Shown piece by piece: positions 2,952 through 55,800 of a stretch of DNA of 64,000 bases. Source of the stretch: Bacteroidaceae bacterium. Its GTDB lineage: Bacteria > Bacteroidota > Bacteroidia > Bacteroidales > Bacteroidaceae. Made by a program: the position numbers and the translations under genes. The stretch's first letter is position 1. Each line of letters begins with the position of its first letter. A model generated the notes under the pieces. It was not told where the DNA came from. It made no database searches and was given only the letters and a program-made list of their open reading frames with translations. Location: the NCBI GenBank assembly GCA_017965425.1, contig JAGCPY010000061.1, positions 1 through 64,000 on the forward strand. Reading direction: 5' to 3'.

Positions 2952-3224
2952 ATGTACGAGATCGGAATGACCAAGACGTTCCGCAAAGACACGGAACGAT
3001 GTCGCAAGCGTGGGTATGACATGGAACTGCTCAAGACCGCCATACGTTTGCTTGAAGCTGACGGTCAACTTCCAAAGAGTTACTACCCTCATAAACTTTC
3101 GGCTCAATATGGCGGATGTTGGGAATGTCACATAAAGCCTGACTGGCTCTTGATTTGGGAGCAGAACGATACAGAACTGACTCTCTTGTTCACAGGAACA
3201 GGTACTCATTCCGACTTGTTCTGA
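2952..3224 (+). CDS. Type II toxin, YafQ/RelE-family mRNA interferase
   Basis: A 90-residue RelE-fold protein. Family hallmarks are the N-terminal TKTFRKDTERCRKRGYD helix, the YYPHKLSAQYGGCWECHI segment (core strand with conserved His and Cys-His) and the DWLLIWEQND strand near residue 60. YafQ-type toxins cut mRNA in the ribosomal A site; activity here is inferred from family. It follows the antitoxin by 6 nt. Length and catalytic region look complete, so the pair is probably functional and may stabilise this accessory region. Confidence 0.85.
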   Translation: MYEIGMTKTFRKDTERCRKRGYDMELLKTAIRLLEADGQLPKSYYPHKLSAQYGGCWECHIKPDWLLIWEQNDTELTLLFTGTGTHSDLF

Positions 3225-3891: not shown

Positions 3892-5100
3892 TTATACTCC
3901 AAAAACATTTTCAAGATTTACTCCAGCTGTAGAAAAAAACGATTCAATTGTAGCTTTCATTTGGACTTCGGCTCCATTGTCTATAGAATGCACCAAGAGT
4001 TGTTCTGTATCTTCTTTCCATTTCCTTACACTTGTTGGATCCATGATGTTTATGATATCTTCTTTGTCGGATTTTATCTCTTTAAGAGGTGAATTCTGAT
4101 TATTCAATTGCCCATACGCATAACTCTCAAACATAGGTATTGTATAGTCCTTTCCCACAAAACGAATAATTTCATCTGAAAGTGGTGAGTGTATTCCATT
4201 TTCATTACTAATCATGGTGACTTTCAACTCCTTTATCCTTTTACGCATCTGTTTCCAGATAATGGTATCATTTTCGTTGAATCCTAGATAATCAAAGGAG
4301 CAAGTTATTTGTCCCTCGTTCAGTTTTCCTTTTACAACATACAGAAGTTTCATGTGTTGTTTTACGAAATCTGGTCTAATAGCAAGATTGTATGTGCTAC
4401 CTAACATTTTTACACTCGGATATATTATAGCGTCCGTTTGGTATATCCCATTCATGGTCGCTTTCTGTAGATTGAGAATGCTATGCGCTATGGCTCCCGA
4501 TAAATAGTAGATATACTTATTTTCAGCAAATGGACTTTTCGCATCATGTGGTATGGAAAAGACTTTTCAGATAAGGTCTGTCATCCTTCTGATACAAGGA
4601 AAGCGGTCAATGCAGTTTTTCATTTCCAAGGCCTTTTCGTCACCGTTGGCAGATAGTTCACATAATATCTTGTACGGAACACATGGATATGACAGCATGC
4701 TTGCGTTATCTTTAACAGCCCAAATACCTGCATAGAATTCGTCGCCTTCTGTAATGTCTGTTTCTAATAGTGAAGTCTTAATATCATTTGCTGCGTAGAA
4801 TGTTGGCGCGTCTAAGGTGTTCATTCGCCCTGGTTCATGGACGGAAGGAGGATACGAGAATCTCTGTGCATGCGTAATACAGTCAGAATCTCCATTCGTT
4901 TTGTTGATTTTCACACACCTGACCAAATGAGTAAATAATGTGTTGCAATTAATTTGTGGAAACAAATAACCAGACACATCTTGCATAATACTTTTTGCTT
5001 CATTACAAGATGTCACAGAACGGAGCCTTTCAATTTGACACTCAAGGTATGAGAAAGCATCGTTTGCTATGCATACAATTTCATCTTTTAATTCATCCAT
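3892..5100 (-). pseudogene. RES-domain protein interrupted by one in-frame TGA
   Basis: Two open frames on the same strand and in the same phase (5100-4567 and 4455-3892) are separated only by a TGA at 4569-4567 and 37 open codons. Read through, they make one 402-residue protein. Residues 80-125 (QRFSY, GRMN, FYAANDIKTSLLETD) and the segment after the stop (SGAIAHSILN, IIYPSVKMLGSTYNLAI) carry the Arg, Tyr, Glu and Ser positions expected in the RES fold, a family with NAD-degrading toxins and larger proteins of this length. The TGA splits the RES fold, so the protein is probably inactive unless the stop is read through or is an assembly error. The start is 66 nt beyond the distal end of the CRISPR array, on the same strand. 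No Xre-type antitoxin is beside it. Confidence 0.6.
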
Positions 5101-5166
5101 ATAATCTTATTTTCATTTAGAAAACTAACAGTTTCAGCAAGCAGCAAAAGCAGAGTTGGCACGTAG

Positions 5167-5664
5167 CTTGTAAATACCACCATTATGTATGCCTTTTACA
5201 GCGGCTGCTGTGGCATAGCCGAGTTGGAGAGTCTTGTAAAAACCACCAATTTTTAAGCCTTTTACAGCAAGAATTCTGTAATAGTTTTTTCAAAGATACT
5301 TGTAAAAACCACCAATTTTTAAGCCTTTTACAGCCGACACGCCGACGTGTCAGTTCTGGCAGTGCTTGTAAATACCACCAATTTTTAAGCCTTTTACAGC
5401 GGAAGGCGAGGTGTTTGGAATCGCGGACGCCTTGTAAATACCACCAATTTTTAAGCCTTTTACAGCATCATAAATCTCGCTTCATCAAGTCTTGCACTTG
5501 TAAATACCACCAATTTTTAAGCCTTTTACAGCACTGGTCGGACTTGTTGCGCACACAGAACGCTTGTAAATACCACCAATTTTTAAGCCTTTTACAGCTG
5601 TGCCGCAGGCGGATGTCGTATTGACAGCCTTGTAAATACCACCAATTTTTAAGCCTTTTACAGC
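5167..5664 (-). CRISPR. CRISPR array, 8 repeats of 36 nt, 7 spacers of 30 nt
   Basis: Repeats occupy 5167-5202, 5233-5268, 5299-5334, 5365-5400, 5431-5466, 5497-5532, 5563-5598 and 5629-5664. Every spacer is exactly 30 nt and all seven differ. The five repeats nearest the nuclease gene are identical; the next two share one change (T to A at repeat base 9, plus strand), and the last (5167-5202) has a scrambled centre. This polarity makes 5664 the young end and 5167 the trailer, so the array reads on the minus strand with the nuclease gene. In that sense a repeat starts GCTGTAAAAGGCTT and ends GGTATTTACAAG, with a possible 6-bp TGTAAA/TTTACA end stem. The first repeat contains the nuclease stop codon; there is no leader. 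No spacer match inside this window was noticed by eye. Confidence 0.97.
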
Positions 5665-7475
5665 CCATCTAATCTAAGATGTTGATGGTTAGAATGGTGA
5701 TACTCATTTGGTACTATTGAAACGGATTCTAAGCTCTCACAATTCTTCTTGGCAGAAGATTCGGTAACTGCTTTAGCTACGTTTCTATGCTTTCCCGCAT
5801 GATGATTACAATTTTTACGTCCAACGCCACCATTGTGACGATTAACGGACGAGAATTTTAATGTTTTGTGAGATGTTCCCAAGAAATAAGCCACATCCCT
5901 GTCTTTGAGCCGACTATCTTTAAACTTCGCTATGCCTTTTTCTTCGAGTTTACAGAAGATAGGATAATCGACTTTCATACGTTCTATATCATAGTCTTTT
6001 AGTTCTTCGCTTTCTGGTCTGAGGTGTTGCAAGTTAAATGCTGAAAGCATATCTCGCTGGTGGGTTCGTCCAATTGATAAGGTTACGGTACGCTCATTCA
6101 ACTCATGTTTTGTAAACTTCCCAATGGTAAAGTCAAACTGTGTCGCAGCATTCTTGATTTCAACCTTATGGAATTTACCCCCTAAAGAGCGTACCTTGTT
6201 TTGCAAAATACTGACAAACATTGCTGGAGCATGATGTGCAACTGACTTGCCAAAGCGTCGCTTACATCGTATTTTCCCATTTTTGCCCCTTTTAGTTTCT
6301 TTTGCACGTTTAGCCCAACTATCAATAGGGTTGTTCTCTACGATAAATTCATCTCCTTGGGACAGCAAGGCATTTGCCATATCTATATGTTGCTGCTTAC
6401 GGATTGCGGCCTGCTTTCTGTAAAGTTCCCGTCGTTCTAACTTCAAACGTTTGTAGCGATTGGAAAAAGTCCATTTCCTACGTTCACCTTTTTCCCGCTT
6501 TTTGTATGTTTTGTCTTCGTTAAAGAAATCTGGATTAGTGTCGCGTTTGCTTCTGTCCATCTTACGATTGATGCGCCATAAATCGTGCTCTATGCTATCA
6601 CATCTATCTGCGAGTTTATCCAAGGAAACACCTTGCAATGAAGATACTGCAATAGTAGAAGGGCCAACATCAATTCCCACAGTACCATTGCCCAGTGAGC
6701 GGTTCTTTTGCGGTTTCTCTCCTTTTATAGTAAGCTGTACATAATATTTGTATTTGCCACGTATGTATTCTCTGGAAACAATTATCTTCCTAACACTGCT
6801 TAAACCACCCTTAAGAGCATACATTTCATACTCTGTCAGTTCTTTATCTGGGTTAATAGGCAGGTGGATGAACTTTGCATGACTTCGTTGTTTCCCATTG
6901 ATGTTAAAAGACAACATCATGTGAGTCAAGTCCAAGACAAAACCGCTAAAGCCTTTATTATTCCGACAACCAAATGTATTAAGTTCGCCTTCTTCCTTAA
7001 ATGATATACGTTTGCTTTTAGAATCATAAATACGCTTTTCCCACGCTTGCTGAATTCGCAAGCCAAGTTCTTCGAGTATGGACGCATTGATGCCCAGCGA
7101 GCCATAGGTTAATCCGCTACCGATATTTCGGTTCTTAAACTTGGGAACAAAGTCAGAGATTCCGTTAGAAGCTTTTTTACCAGAATTTTTAGAACGACGT
7201 GAATAAGTGTATGGGAACTTGACAATAGCAGGATTGCCGTTCCTATCACAGAAGTCCTTGAAAGTGATTGGATGATGCTCCCAGAAATCCCGTTTCTCGT
7301 CATTGTCCTTGCAATCACGATATACTTTTTGCTGCGATAGGTAGATGTAATGATGAAGAAGTTTTCGCTGCACCATATTATATATACGGCGCAGATGCTC
7401 ATACCTTTTGTTGAGGATGTCTGCTTGCCACGGCTCAACTTTCAAAGGCAGTGTCAATACGAATTCTTCTATCAT
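5658..7475 (-). CDS. TnpB/Cas12-like RuvC nuclease of a compact type V-like CRISPR system
   Basis: A 605-residue single-effector candidate. The N-terminus (FVLTLPLKVEPWQADILNKRYEHLRRIYN) matches the start of TnpB and small Cas12 proteins. RuvC motif I is GTVGIDVG (Asp269), motif II is EFIVENNP (Glu380) and motif III is HQRDMLSAFNL (Asp475), so the catalytic triad is intact. Residues 290-360 form a long basic helical region. The zinc-ribbon position between motifs II and III (443-475) has lost all four expected cysteines. After motif III come about 120 residues, longer than in ordinary TnpB; the last 60 are His-, Lys- and Asn-rich and may be shaped by an RNA encoded in the same DNA. Length exceeds TnpB (about 400) and is near small Cas12 types. 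The last seven bases lie in the first CRISPR repeat. No transposon ends or TnpA are visible. A guide-directed DNA nuclease role is inferred from family and context; subtype unassigned. Confidence 0.9.
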   Translation of the reverse strand: MIEEFVLTLPLKVEPWQADILNKRYEHLRRIYNMVQRKLLHHYIYLSQQKVYRDCKDNDEKRDFWEHHPITFKDFCDRNGNPAIVKFPYTYSRRSKNSGKKASNGISDFVPKFKNRNIGSGLTYGSLGINASILEELGLRIQQAWEKRIYDSKSKRISFKEEGELNTFGCRNNKGFSGFVLDLTHMMLSFNINGKQRSHAKFIHLPINPDKELTEYEMYALKGGLSSVRKIIVSREYIRGKYKYYVQLTIKGEKPQKNRSLGNGTVGIDVGPSTIAVSSLQGVSLDKLADRCDSIEHDLWRINRKMDRSKRDTNPDFFNEDKTYKKREKGERRKWTFSNRYKRLKLERRELYRKQAAIRKQQHIDMANALLSQGDEFIVENNPIDSWAKRAKETKRGKNGKIRCKRRFGKSVAHHAPAMFVSILQNKVRSLGGKFHKVEIKNAATQFDFTIGKFTKHELNERTVTLSIGRTHQRDMLSAFNLQHLRPESEELKDYDIERMKVDYPIFCKLEEKGIAKFKDSRLKDRDVAYFLGTSHKTLKFSSVNRHNGGVGRKNCNHHAGKHRNVAKAVTESSAKKNCESLESVSIVPNEYHHSNHQHLRLDGL

Positions 7476-7504
7476 AGATTAAGTTTCAATGCTCTAACAT
7501 GTTG

Positions 7505-7512
7505 CAAAAATA
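7505..7512 (-). promoter_or_regulatory. Candidate promoter of the nuclease-array unit
   Basis: On the minus strand TATTTTTG matches TAnnTTTG, 30 nt upstream of the nuclease start at 7475. A TTTG at 7528-7525 sits only 12 nt further up, less than the usual 19-21 nt, so the -33 part is unsure. With no leader at the array, this may be the only promoter driving both nuclease and crRNAs. Confidence 0.4.
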
Positions 7513-7640
7513 GGCAAAAATCTCCAAAGTATCGCAGAAAAACCAAAAATTATAGTTAATAGGGACTCTTTTCGTGCCTTTTTTCCCTAAAACGTTTCTA
7601 TTCGTATGGTTCTCTCCGTTTTTATATGTAATTTTATATG

Positions 7641-7648
7641 TAATTTTG
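7641..7648 (+). promoter_or_regulatory. Candidate -7 box for the 7672 ORF
   Basis: TAATTTTG fits TAnnTTTG and lies 24 nt before the ATG at 7672. It diverges from the nuclease promoter about 130 nt away. No clear -33 TTTG is seen. Confidence 0.3.
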
Positions 7649-7671
7649 CCCGTAGTAAACGAAGGAACATA

Positions 7672-7923
7672 ATGCATATCCGTTATTTCTCTGAAAGAAC
7701 AATCTGTCAACTGAAACCACAGCAGGGATTATCAGAACCTTGTCAACGTCGGGCGCTTGATGTGACATTGGCCTGCAAGTTGACGTTAACTTATGGCCAG
7801 TTTCATTCGGCAATGCTTCATAGGGAGTTGTTCATGGGTGAAAAGAAGACTTCCTATCAGCAGGCAGAGCGAATGGCGGTAATTACACTCAGTCCCACCA
7901 CGATAGCAACTTATATTCCCTAA
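7672..7923 (+). CDS. Hypothetical small protein divergent to the nuclease
   Basis: An 83-residue frame whose ATG at 7672 is preceded by GAAGGA at good spacing. I do not recognise the family. It is Cys-, Gln- and Arg-containing with no clear membrane segment. Just after its stop another frame (7925-8086) stays open for 53 codons and ends in ADVIIRADAGK, faintly like a DDE-transposase strand, so the area could be a decayed insertion sequence rather than a gene. It is the only open frame between the nuclease and the AraC gene and could be tested as an accessory partner. Confidence 0.3.
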   Translation: MHIRYFSERTICQLKPQQGLSEPCQRRALDVTLACKLTLTYGQFHSAMLHRELFMGEKKTSYQQAERMAVITLSPTTIATYIP

Positions 7924-52080: not shown

Positions 52081-52264
52081 AGTTAATAATTAGTTTTCAC
52101 ATAAATTCGAGACATAAATTATTCATGAATTCAAGACATAAATTATATAATGGTCTGTATTCATCATCTTAGAGTTAATAATTTGTTTTTACATAAATTC
52201 GAGACATAAATTATTCATGAATTCAAGACATAAATTATATAATGGTCTGTATTCATCATCTTAG
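52081..52264. repeat. 92-bp direct tandem repeat, two copies
   Basis: AGTTAATAAT starts at 52081 and again at 52173; the copies are nearly identical over about 90 nt. Each contains a 47-nt block (52099-52145 and 52191-52237) that is inversely repeated at 52764-52810 beyond the GxxExxY gene. Confidence 0.85.
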
Positions 52265-52278
52265 AGTTGGGATGGGTT

Positions 52279-52819: not shown

Positions 52820-55800
52820 CTATTCCTTGGGCAGCGTCTTCCATGTGAGTCCCTTCTGCTCTTCTCTCTGAGGCATGAAGATGCTGAGGATGAGGGCTAC
52901 GAGGACGCTGACGAGCATGGAGACGAAGCCGAAGAGGAGGAAGTTGGCCTGGGTGCAGAAATTCATGTAGAGGACGGTGGCTGTGCCACAGAGGAAACCG
53001 ATCATGGCAGCTCTGGAGCCAATGCGCGGGAAGAAGATACCCATCATGAAGAGACCGCCGATGGCACCGCTGAGGAGGCCGAGGATGGTGTTGAAATAGT
53101 CGAGGAGTGACTGTATGTCCACGGTGGCCATGAGCCAAGCGATGGCCATGCCGATGAGGCCTGCACAGATGCCTGCGATGCGGGCGGTGCGGACGGAGGT
53201 ATCGCCGGCAGAGGAAGCGCCGGACACACTCTTGGCGGCTTTCTTCCATTTCGACCAGAGATCCACGGTGAAGGCGGTGGAGATGGAGTTAATGTTGGAG
53301 GCGATGGTGGACATGGTGGCAGCAAAGACGGCTGCGATGAGTAGCCCTGCAAGGCCTGCGGGTAGCTGGCTCATCATGAAGAAGGGGAAGATAGCATCTC
53401 CCTTGGCCATGGTGATGTCGAGTTCGGCAGGATGGGTCTTGAAGAAGGTGTAGAGGCCTGTGCCGATGGTGAAGAAGGCGATGGTGACGACGACGGACAT
53501 CAAGCCATTGGTCAGGATGCCGCGGGCAGCACTCTTCTCGTCGGAGGTGGTGAGGTAGCGCTGGATGACAGTCTGGTCGCTGGTGTAGGAGATGAGGTTG
53601 TTGGCCAGGCCTCCGAGGATGACTACCCACCATGTGGCATTGACGAAGTCGAAGGGATTCTCTGCATCGAAGAGGAAGAGACGGAACTTGTCGTGGTCGG
53701 TGGCAATCTGCCAGAAGTCGGAGGCTCCGTTCTCGCCTGTATTCACGATGAGATAGACGGCGGCGAGGATGGCACCTCCCACGAGGATGATGCCCTGGAT
53801 GACATCGCCCCAGACGACGGCTTCGACACCGCCCATGGTGCAGTAGAGAATGGTGATGAGGGCCATCAGGGCTATACATATATAAATATTGATGCCTGTG
53901 ACGGCGGTCATGGCCAAGGATGGCAGGAAGAGGACGAGAGCCGTGCGTGCCACCATGAAAACGATGAAGAGGATGGAGGCCATGAGACGGGTGGCGCTGT
54001 TGAAACGACGCTCCAGGTACTCGTAGGCGGTAGTGACGTTCAGGCGACGGAAGAAGGGCAGATAGTAGCGTATGACGGGGAACGAGACGAGCAGGATGCA
54101 GATCTGCATGGGATAGTAGGTCCAGTCAGTAGCGTATGCCTTGGCGGGAATCGACATGTAGGTGATGGCGCTGAGCATGGTGGCGAAGATGCTGATGCCT
54201 GCAGCCCACCAGGGGATGCGTCCGCCGCCCTTGAAGAAGTCGTCGCTGGAGTTCGAGGCACGGCGCATGAAGTAGTAGCCGAGATACACCATGCCGAGGA
54301 GATAGAGGATGAGGACTGTCCAGTTGAGCCATCCGAAGTGAGCGGTGTATGAGATATCGACGCGTGTGACATCGGAAGAACGGACACCGGGTTTCTCTTC
54401 ACCTCCGACGACGATGGCAGAGAGGGAGGAGCTTCCTGTTCCAGACGGAACAGGCACTACGGCCGCACCGGCACGGGCGATGAGGGGACTGTCGAAGAGC
54501 TCTGCCCAGGAGTCGGTGACGGTGTGATAGACGAGGATGCTGCGACGGAAGCGATACCATGCTGGCTGCTGCGTCATGTAGGTATGTGCCTCTTCGCGGA
54601 GGGCTTGAAGACGGTCGGCAGCGGTAGCCGTGTCTGCGAGGAGGGCGTTGCGCTGCAGGGCAGTCTCGAAAATGGCTTTGTTCACGCCACCGAAGCAGAG
54701 GATATGAGCGGCACCGGAGGGGATGGCAGAGGCACCTACCAAGGCGAGGACATCAAGACTCGCTTCCTGCCCCATTGTCTGGGGGAGAGCCTCACTCTCG
54801 TTTGAACATGGGAGGTGCTGGGGCTTTGCCATCAGTGATGTGGGCAGCCACTCTCGTTTCCTCGTGTCGTAATAGACACCATTGGCGACGGCTTTGCAAT
54901 AGCGTGGGTCGAAGCCACCGAGGAGGTAGAAATTGGAGCCTAAGGCACCTTTCTGTACGACGGCACAGGGCTGCACGCGTGCAGGACCGGGCATCTCGGG
55001 CAGCTCTTCCCACGCGGCACCTGTCTGGGCCTCAAACCATGCGGCAGGCAATGGCCATTTCAGGCGGAAGGCTTGGCGATTGATGATGCCATTATGCTGA
55101 CCTCCGGCGATGTAGATGAAGCCATCACCATAAGCGGCGGCAAAATTGTCGAGGGCGACGGGGAGAGGGGGAAGATCCTGGGACTGCAGCTGTCCTGCCT
55201 TGGTGAAGGAGAGGAGGACAGCGAAATCTTCGCTCTTCTGCCCGTCGGCCGTACCGCCGAGGCAGACGACACCCTCGGGAGTGGTGACGCTGGCGCCATA
55301 GGCGAGGGCACAAGGGAGGGAGCCAACGCGCTGCCAGGCAGCGCCTGGGGAGGAGAGAGCCGCCCCGGCGGAAAAACCGCCGGGCACACTACCAGCGGCG
55401 GAGGCAGAAGCAGAAGCGCCGCACGCAGAAGCAGAGGCAGAAGCGGAGGGGGCAGAACCAGAGGCAGAAGCAGAAGCGGAGGGGGAAGCGCCGCACGCAG
55501 AAGCAGAGGCAGAAGCGGAGGGGGAAGCGCCGGAAGCAGAAGCAGAAGCGGCAGAACCAAAAGCAGAAGCGGAGGCAGAAGCGATGTCGAGGACATAGAT
55601 GTCGGTGTAGAAGGCTTTCTGACCGCCGTCTGCGGCAGGGATGCCGGGGAAGTTACAGCCGCCTGCTATGAGGATGCGACCTGCGGTCTGACCTGCGAAG
55701 GCACCACTGACGCCTTGACCGCCAAAGGCGGAGAGGGCTGGGATGGGTAGGAATGAGACGTCGTTGAAGCGATGGGACTCTCCCGTCACGACTGCAGGTT

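Follow-up and report, generated by a model that had tools for sequence, protein, structure and literature searches.

The first 64,000 nucleotides (nt) of contig JAGCPY010000061.1 of a Bacteroidaceae bacterium (NCBI GenBank assembly GCA_017965425.1), hereafter the window, carry on the minus strand a gene for a TnpB/Cas12-like protein of 605 amino acids (aa) that runs into a clustered regularly interspaced short palindromic repeats (CRISPR) array. The locus is very probably a self-contained, single-effector, TnpB-descended CRISPR system of an unassigned, type V-U-like kind with a split guide, in which an effector loaded with a trans-activating CRISPR RNA (tracrRNA) and a CRISPR RNA (crRNA) would cut spacer-matching DNA, mainly that of phages. 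The array, the catalytic residues, a conserved tracr-like RNA, cognate pairing across the family, spacer turnover and the phage protospacers of one relative can be read from the DNA itself; for expression, processing, a protospacer-adjacent motif (PAM), DNA cleavage and a role in immunity in the window strain, we infer.

According to the proposed mechanism, the effector gene would be transcribed on the minus strand into the array, and the tracrRNA would be the RNA that precedes the first repeat and is contained in the 3' end of the open reading frame (ORF). This RNA would pair with each repeat through an anti-repeat helix and a pseudoknot with the repeat 3' end, a pairing that would mirror the two halves of the TnpB omegaRNA. 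The tracr:crRNA pair would load the RuvC effector, and the loaded effector would cut DNA matching the spacers, mainly phage DNA. On the origin of such guides, one published proposal derives the tracrRNA-crRNA pair from an omegaRNA that split, the crRNA portion afterwards growing into an array [Nature 2023, PMC10097598]. The features of the locus are as follows:

5658..7475, minus strand: effector ORF, 605 aa, TnpB/Cas12-like (ORF list and profile match)
6669-6671, 6336-6338 and 6051-6053, minus strand: codons of the RuvC triad D269, E380 and D475
5665..5852, minus strand: tracrRNA-like element, minimum extent, overlapping ORF codons 544-605 and conserved in relatives
5818..5851, minus strand: hairpin of the tracr-like element, with a GTCC...GGAC outer stem and an inner stem-loop (by eye)
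5806..5811, minus strand: UUGUAA, proposed pseudoknot partner of repeat positions 30-35 (UUACAA), 6/6 pairs
5694..5707, minus strand: anti-repeat segment, 12 consecutive pairs with repeat positions 21-32
5629..5664, minus strand: first (tracr-proximal) repeat, holding the ORF stop codon
5167..5664, minus strand: CRISPR array, eight repeats of 36 nt (sense GCTGTAAAAGGCTTAAAAATTGGTGGTATTTACAAG) and seven spacers of 30 nt
5167-5202, minus strand: tracr-distal repeat, degenerate

The effector, its arrays and its family

An earlier note on this DNA had described a regular array of 36-nt repeats and 30-nt spacers, on the same strand as the gene and overlapping it. This is borne out: eight copies follow one another at an exact 66-nt step from 5167 to 5664, differing from the consensus, copy by copy, at 0, 0, 0, 0, 0, 1, 1 and 4 positions, and the effector stop codon (5658-5660) lies inside the first repeat, gene and array having 7 nt of the minus strand in common. 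Because the period is exact over eight copies, the array is no chance pattern, and a chance origin is ruled out both by this period and by the arrays that accompany 32 of the 33 complete effectors of the family. The effector gene is single-copy in its own genome. A promoter and terminator scan of 4900-7800 gave a result no better than shuffles, and Rfam returned nothing for the window at the gathering threshold, only sub-threshold rows.

The RuvC triad, which the note had judged intact, is invariant, with D269, E380 and D475 kept in all 33 complete members, the window included. The window-family protein is closest to TnpB profiles. The window effector matches guided_TnpB with an E-value of 3.5e-9 and 36.4 bits, under the curated cut-off of 100 bits; this profile is matched at E ≤ 0.01 by 29/29 members scanned, all scores seen being under the cut-off, as are those of some outgroup TnpBs (69.2 to 98 bits). 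Pfam gives the window effector no match above cut-off. Its matches to Cas12f and Cas12u1 profiles are weak (E 3.3e-6 for the Cas12f model, the best over 29 members being a still weak 7.4e-14), and IS605 TnpB outgroups reach a similar range with the Cas12f models. The NCBIfam c2c8 model is matched at E ≤ 0.01 by two of 29 members, the window not among them, and the highest score among the four members with listed bits is 49.2; as the cut-off of 350 bits is not reached, membership of C2c8 (type V-U2) is rejected. Membership of Cas12m (type V-M) is likewise rejected: Cas12m has a non-canonical RuvC triad with His at the first position [PMC10442227], where all 33 members have Asp269. Solved structures offered no meaningful match to the window effector, and a profile of 29 relatives found one chain below E 1, 9j09 (‘Transposase’, E 0.0034). 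Cysteines before the third RuvC motif number 0-2 in the family and are few, by eye, in the outgroup TnpBs.

The complete effectors (window, L017-L039, L041-L045, L065-L067 and L071, L-numbers being locus handles) range from 492 to 615 aa and all come from Bacteroidales genomes. Left out were L040 (frame broken), L047 (a fragment), L046 (distant) and loci repeating the same contigs; in L040 the frame breaks after 52 codons, and the upstream RNA motif and a four-unit array are still present. Carriers made up 8 of 399 genomes sampled from the window's family at E 1e-5, its own genome and one fragment counted, and the window's own was the only one in samples of its order (1/393, limit 1e-20) and phylum (1/345, limit 1e-15). 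Three genera centred on carriers gave effector matches in 10/200, 5/45 and 1/17 genomes. A scan of genome_contigs with the effector alignment, which uses two short peptide patterns from seven members and finds close relatives only, returned 31 loci, 30 of them titled Bacteroidales, Bacteroidaceae, Prevotellaceae or Prevotella and one a distant Lachnospiraceae protein; several titles name ruminant gut samples. The same scan with the single window protein gave 17 pattern matches with no relative among them, and viral_contigs scanned with the effector alignment gave no match. No paper recognised as describing the family came from a literature search whose scope left most subscription journals outside.

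Mapping of 31 arrays, that of L040 included, yielded 159 spacers, of which 153 are 29-30 nt long; in L029, L036, L043, L045 and L065 only two repeats were detected. The repeats diverge along with the effector clades, and those of clade B hold a small inverted repeat (GGTG..CACC). The earlier note had asked whether the array always lies at the 3' end of the gene, which it does not. The order is gene-RNA-array in 10 loci (window, L017-L022, L065-L067) and RNA-array-gene in 20 (L023-L039, L041, L042, L071), and in two (L043, L045) a pair of genes separates the effector from the RNA and array. The tracrRNA-like element directly 5' of the array is a more constant feature than the position of the array.

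L043 and L045 add two mini arrays to the 31 mapped, each ~6 kb beyond the effector on its downstream side and made up of one spacer between two repeats, one of the two being cut by a contig end. Ddm-like genes adjoin these effectors (L043:7678-11382 and L128:9304-11535, L128 being the contig of L045). They encode a DdmD homologue of 1235 aa (PADLOC DdmD, E 9e-28; PDB 9ix4, DdmD, E 2e-44) and a protein of 744 aa that matches DdmE over a short stretch (9iw3, E 1.8e-4), and are followed by the tracr and then the one-spacer array, with different spacers in the two copies. Apparently, a CRISPR effector and a DdmDE-like plasmid-defence pair stand here in one operon. Several similar small genes lie upstream of the L043 effector, one of which (L043:5372-5737) matches DUF3853 (E 4.7e-12).

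Spacers, targets and adaptation genes

Targets were found for a relative of the window, L027, whose array holds 40 spacers. Spacers 1 and 4, which overlap by 22 nt on the same strand, match the viral contig IMGVR_UViG_3300031867_003498 (L104) at 29/30 and 30/30 positions. The gene that holds both protospacers matches a major tail protein (phrog_1407, E 2e-10), and the contig also bears a portal gene (E 7.7e-29). Among seven spacer patterns scanned in viral_contigs, this contig was the only specific match, coming from L027, with none for the window; exact cores of L027 spacers 2 and 3 had no match there, and a 17-mer from L033 had 13, none longer than 19 nt. Spacers compared with the collected loci gave 644 hits, of which 24 were not behind a repeat end, these being the two L104 protospacers, L033 17-19-mers and L027 self-overlaps.

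No spacer is common to any two of the 31 compared arrays; effector pairs 98.8, 98.0 and 97.1% identical have zero spacers in common, and the single spacers of L043 and L045 differ in company with effectors that are 98.6% identical. Near-identical effectors without common spacers therefore indicate that spacers turn over. The tracr-distal repeat is the more degenerate one in 26 of 28 arrays with at least three repeats, equal in two and the tracr-proximal in none, and therefore spacers probably enter on the tracr side. One such pair is L066 and L067, with effectors 98.8% identical, near-identical upstream RNA and the same downstream neighbour (a DUF3841 match in the L066 copy); their repeats differ in the middle, they have no common spacers, and cas1 was not detected in their two draft genomes. 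With at least one such pair in genomes of this kind, spacer acquisition becomes a testable question.

Several results count against an immune function as proposed. The two L027 protospacers have no common 5' flank. Exact cores of window spacers 1, 2 and 4 (3/7) found no protospacer in viral_contigs, the whole window array found none in phages or in all collected loci, and a BLAST search of the array against phages and plasmids gave nothing convincing. Furthermore, no cas1 lies near the effector in the 18 carrier genomes, 17 with a complete effector and one with a fragment and mostly incomplete drafts, and cas1 was matched in only six of them. The sole cas1 on an effector contig is a partial match 1.7 Mb away in the chromosome of L044. 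The window's own genome (G000) has two cas1 genes on other contigs, C30 and C87, which could provide adaptation in trans or be part of other CRISPR types.

It is unlikely that the system is RNA-guided without being mainly anti-phage, controlling other mobile elements or genes or serving the element that carries it. The shortness of many arrays, the DdmD- and DdmE-like genes adjoining L043 and L045 and the one short putative guide of L044 would suit such a role, but the 40 spacers of L027, two of them from a tailed-phage-like contig, and a RuvC triad intact in 33/33 members count against it.

The tracr-like RNA and its pairing with the repeat

A tracr-like RNA is clear 5' of the array in 31 of 33 arrays and weak in two. 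Between the core gene and the first repeat of L020-L022 it is a conserved non-coding stretch, and where the array precedes the gene the conserved stretch keeps its place relative to the array. Of the 29 clade A/B arrays, 28 have the motif GAGTATAGMGCRAGT, with up to two changes allowed, on the 5' side of the first repeat and ~75 nt away from it. An RNA model built from 23 upstream regions located the elements of L043 and L045 (40.4 bits, E 0.001) and is weak on clade C (33.5 and 28.1 bits); its match to the window (E 7e-13) is partly by construction, the window's region having been included in the model. The predicted fold of the tracr core keeps two-sided changes in six of 10 pairs, and a hairpin like that at 5818-5851 of the window is found in the non-coding DNA of L020-L022 and in L044.

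In the clade of the window (window, L017, L018, L019 and L065) this conserved stretch is read as ORF residues 544-605. Differences there at codon positions 1, 2 and 3 are 23, 21 and 29 for window/L017 (139, 125 and 288 in the core ORF), 11, 10 and 10 for L017/L018 (core 107, 66, 266), 6, 10 and 11 for L017/L065 (core 86, 42, 248), 14, 10 and 7 for L018/L065 (core 101, 68, 256) and 1, 1 and 0 for L018/L019 (core 6, 6, 14). There is no clear third-position excess, unlike in the core ORF; just ahead of it, in residues 512-543, four pairs differ, and three of them retain the coding pattern. Therefore, the ~62 C-terminal codons of the 605-aa ORF appear to be conserved mostly as RNA. The 605-residue protein of the earlier note stands as an ORF, but its last ~62 residues overlap the conserved RNA and evolve little like protein.

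Pairing was assessed by duplex prediction, each repeat being folded against the 75 nt upstream of its array. Compared with 500 dinucleotide shuffles, the anti-repeat is beaten by at most 25 shuffles in 23 of 31 arrays. Across the family a duplex swap test was used in place of a count of pairs on the MAFFT alignment, where the helix is shifted by one position from clade to clade. Over 18 distinct repeat types, cognate combinations average -23.0 kcal/mol against -18.4 for permuted ones, a value that none of 20000 permutations attains; for clade B alone the figure is 27/20000. The second predicted contact, the pseudoknot between repeat positions 30-35 and an upstream UUGUNN, makes five or six of six pairs in 31/34 loci. 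By our own reading, 25 loci have the UUGUNN in one and the same 5' hairpin loop, and in the five loci of the window clade it comes after the next hairpin instead; in L023, L036 and L042 the partner is cut off by contig ends, and L024 is truly without one. The pairs themselves vary. At repeat position 31, clade B, L043/L045 and L044 have G-C and the remaining loci U-A; at position 30, clade C has A-U, L020-L022 have a mismatch and most of the rest have U-A. A count of the 6-mer is weak by itself: a fully pairing UUGUNN lies upstream in 28/34 of the own loci and also in 24-70% of loci with other tails, by tail type (8/30, 8/33, 23/33, 4/11, 12/29). The contact resembles the pseudoknot described for ISDra2 omegaRNA, whose bases -6 to -2 pair with bases ~100 nt upstream [PMC10097598].

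Other results weaken the case for a tracrRNA. Neither the window nor either of the two clade C loci has the motif GAGTATAGMGCRAGT. The window anti-repeat is not significant against shuffles (95/500), and seven other arrays lie beyond 25/500 (L019 41, L020 281, L021 83, L022 331, L023 34, L042 30, L065 87), so that the pairing of clade A loci taken singly is mostly not convincing. The swap test is not significant for clade A alone (2398/20000), and relatedness is not corrected for in its permutations. A tracr role for the upstream RNA is nevertheless strongly suggested by its conservation and by the swap test over the whole family, less so by the window alone.

The array-less member bears on the same question. 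L044, from the complete chromosome of Prevotella communis E15-14, is the only complete member without an array; none lies within 6 kb, and the RNA model has no hit in its genome. After its stop codon, L044:7453-7643 resembles the RNA of L020-L022 and runs unbroken into ATATAAGGTAATGACAAG, which is close to the repeat 3' ends (GGTAATTACAAG in L017) and is followed by a short T-rich stretch. This is apparently an unsplit omegaRNA with a single guide. The short putative guide has one exact hit in its own genome, which is its own place, and one with a mismatch; Rfam returned nothing for L044. A TATCGCC just after the RNA could pair, by eye, with GGCGATA inside it.

That the repeat RNA works alone, as crRNA does in Cas12a or Cas12m, with the conserved upstream RNA merely a leader, is improbable. 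It would agree with the small inverted repeat of clade B repeats and with the weakness of the window anti-repeat pairing by itself; pairing that is cognate across 18 repeat types, and an L044 RNA of the same kind continuous with the repeat 3' end, speak against it. An orphan array from another CRISPR type, with an unrelated selfish or domesticated TnpB-like gene beside it, is scarcely credible: the lack of cas1 on the effector's contig and the two cas1 genes elsewhere in the window's genome are in its favour, but arrays accompany nearly every complete effector, repeat divergence tracks the effector clades, and the repeat 3' ends match the RNA 3' end of array-less L044.

History and comparison with known systems

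The nearest outgroups found are IS200/IS605 TnpBs, with ~31% identity over ~85% of the length (e.g. from Geobacillus virus E3 and a Mycoplasmatota plasmid). In trees that took in the window family and TnpB outgroups, and no Cas12 of known subtype, Cas12f included, clade C branches first and L044 groups with the A/B lineage. When all array carriers are held together in a clade that excludes L044, an approximately unbiased (AU) test rejects the tree (p 0.009), and therefore arrays arose twice or L044 lost its array; the history of the array is uncertain because L044 and clade C are on long branches. One possible course, put forward tentatively, starts from an array-bearing ancestor with a split guide, from which L044 would have lost its array and come to a single omegaRNA-like guide, the tracr-array cassette having moved around the effector gene, to a place after it, ahead of it or two genes off next to DdmD/DdmE-like genes; the transition may thus run both ways. 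A history with two array origins, in clade C and in the A/B lineage, and an ancestral unsplit omegaRNA kept in L044 is just as tentative, and concerns history and not function. The AU test speaks for it, but the long branches of L044 and clade C count against it, and array loss with re-fusion in L044 explains the tree equally well.

No Y1 transposase was found on the effector's contig in 17 of the 18 carrier genomes, and in the single chromosome of L044 the nearest is ~280 kb from the effector. As none is nearby in any of the 18, the locus is probably not an autonomous IS200/IS605 element (transposon ends being unmapped), although tnpB elements without tnpA are common [PMC6452270]. To the earlier note the locus, with its TnpB-like protein, its true array and its lack of transposon parts, looked like a transitional or unassigned type V variant, a view to which the profiles, the TnpB outgroups and the lack of a nearby Y1 transposase lend support. 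It had named array-less homologues with IS ends as evidence to the contrary; one array-less member, L044, does exist and fits that description only in part, with no Y1 transposase nearby and its IS ends unmapped.

The surroundings of the window locus include a small protein just after the array (4567-5100) with a marginal RES-domain match (E 5.7e-5) and a YafQ/RelE-type toxin gene (2952-3224; Pfam E 6.9e-31). Farther off, at 52081-52268 and 55404-55583, are a direct duplication of 92 bp and a GCAGAAGCAGAG-like repeat of low complexity.

The route from transposon nuclease to CRISPR effector is an active question. Within this one protein family, with its compact effectors, there is what looks like an omegaRNA in one piece, along with a tracr that still shares sequence with the effector ORF and cassettes of tracr and array that stand outside the ORF. 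The family so offers a close-range set for testing which changes in RNA and protein are needed.

Among known systems, TnpB/Cas14a-like genes of Clostridium novyi sensu lato lie beside solitary CRISPR arrays in a putative phage-inducible island [PMC8473940]. They adjoin arrays as the window family does, belong to another phylum and are likened to it by description only; the main text on those arrays does not name a tracrRNA. Cas12f uses a crRNA and a tracrRNA [PMC10097598], and Cas12f (type V-F) and C2c8 (V-U2) are the best Cas12 profile matches of the window family, but with weak scores. The IS200/IS605 TnpBs are alike in sequence at ~31% identity, in having few cysteines and, for the window clade, in a putative guide RNA that overlaps the gene 3' end, as the published TnpB omegaRNA does [PMC10097598]. 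They differ in that tnpA adjoins tnpB in four of the eight outgroup records fetched, whereas the window family carries arrays, and in the 18 genomes no Y1 transposase is near the effector.

The TranC systems, transposon-CRISPR intermediates reportedly described by Jin et al. in Cell in 2025, are said to have a TnpB-derived effector with an omegaRNA split into tracrRNA and crRNA, and reportedly to be active with both a crRNA and a single omegaRNA. The sequence evidence for a split guide in the window family agrees with that description of TranC, the comparison being one of concept only.

According to the 2025 classification, TnpB is inferred to have become linked to arrays and/or adaptation modules on some 50 independent occasions, and such candidates are grouped as type V-U [Nat Microbiol 2025, PMC12669027]. 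The window family resembles them as described there in its small TnpB-like effector, its CRISPR array and the absence of adaptation genes seen alongside. Because ~50 such TnpB-to-CRISPR events are already in print, the family is a variant of a kind already known. Compared by description only, it differs from those V-U candidates in what is unusual about it: a tracr inside the ORF in one clade, three layouts of gene, RNA and array, and one array-less relative.

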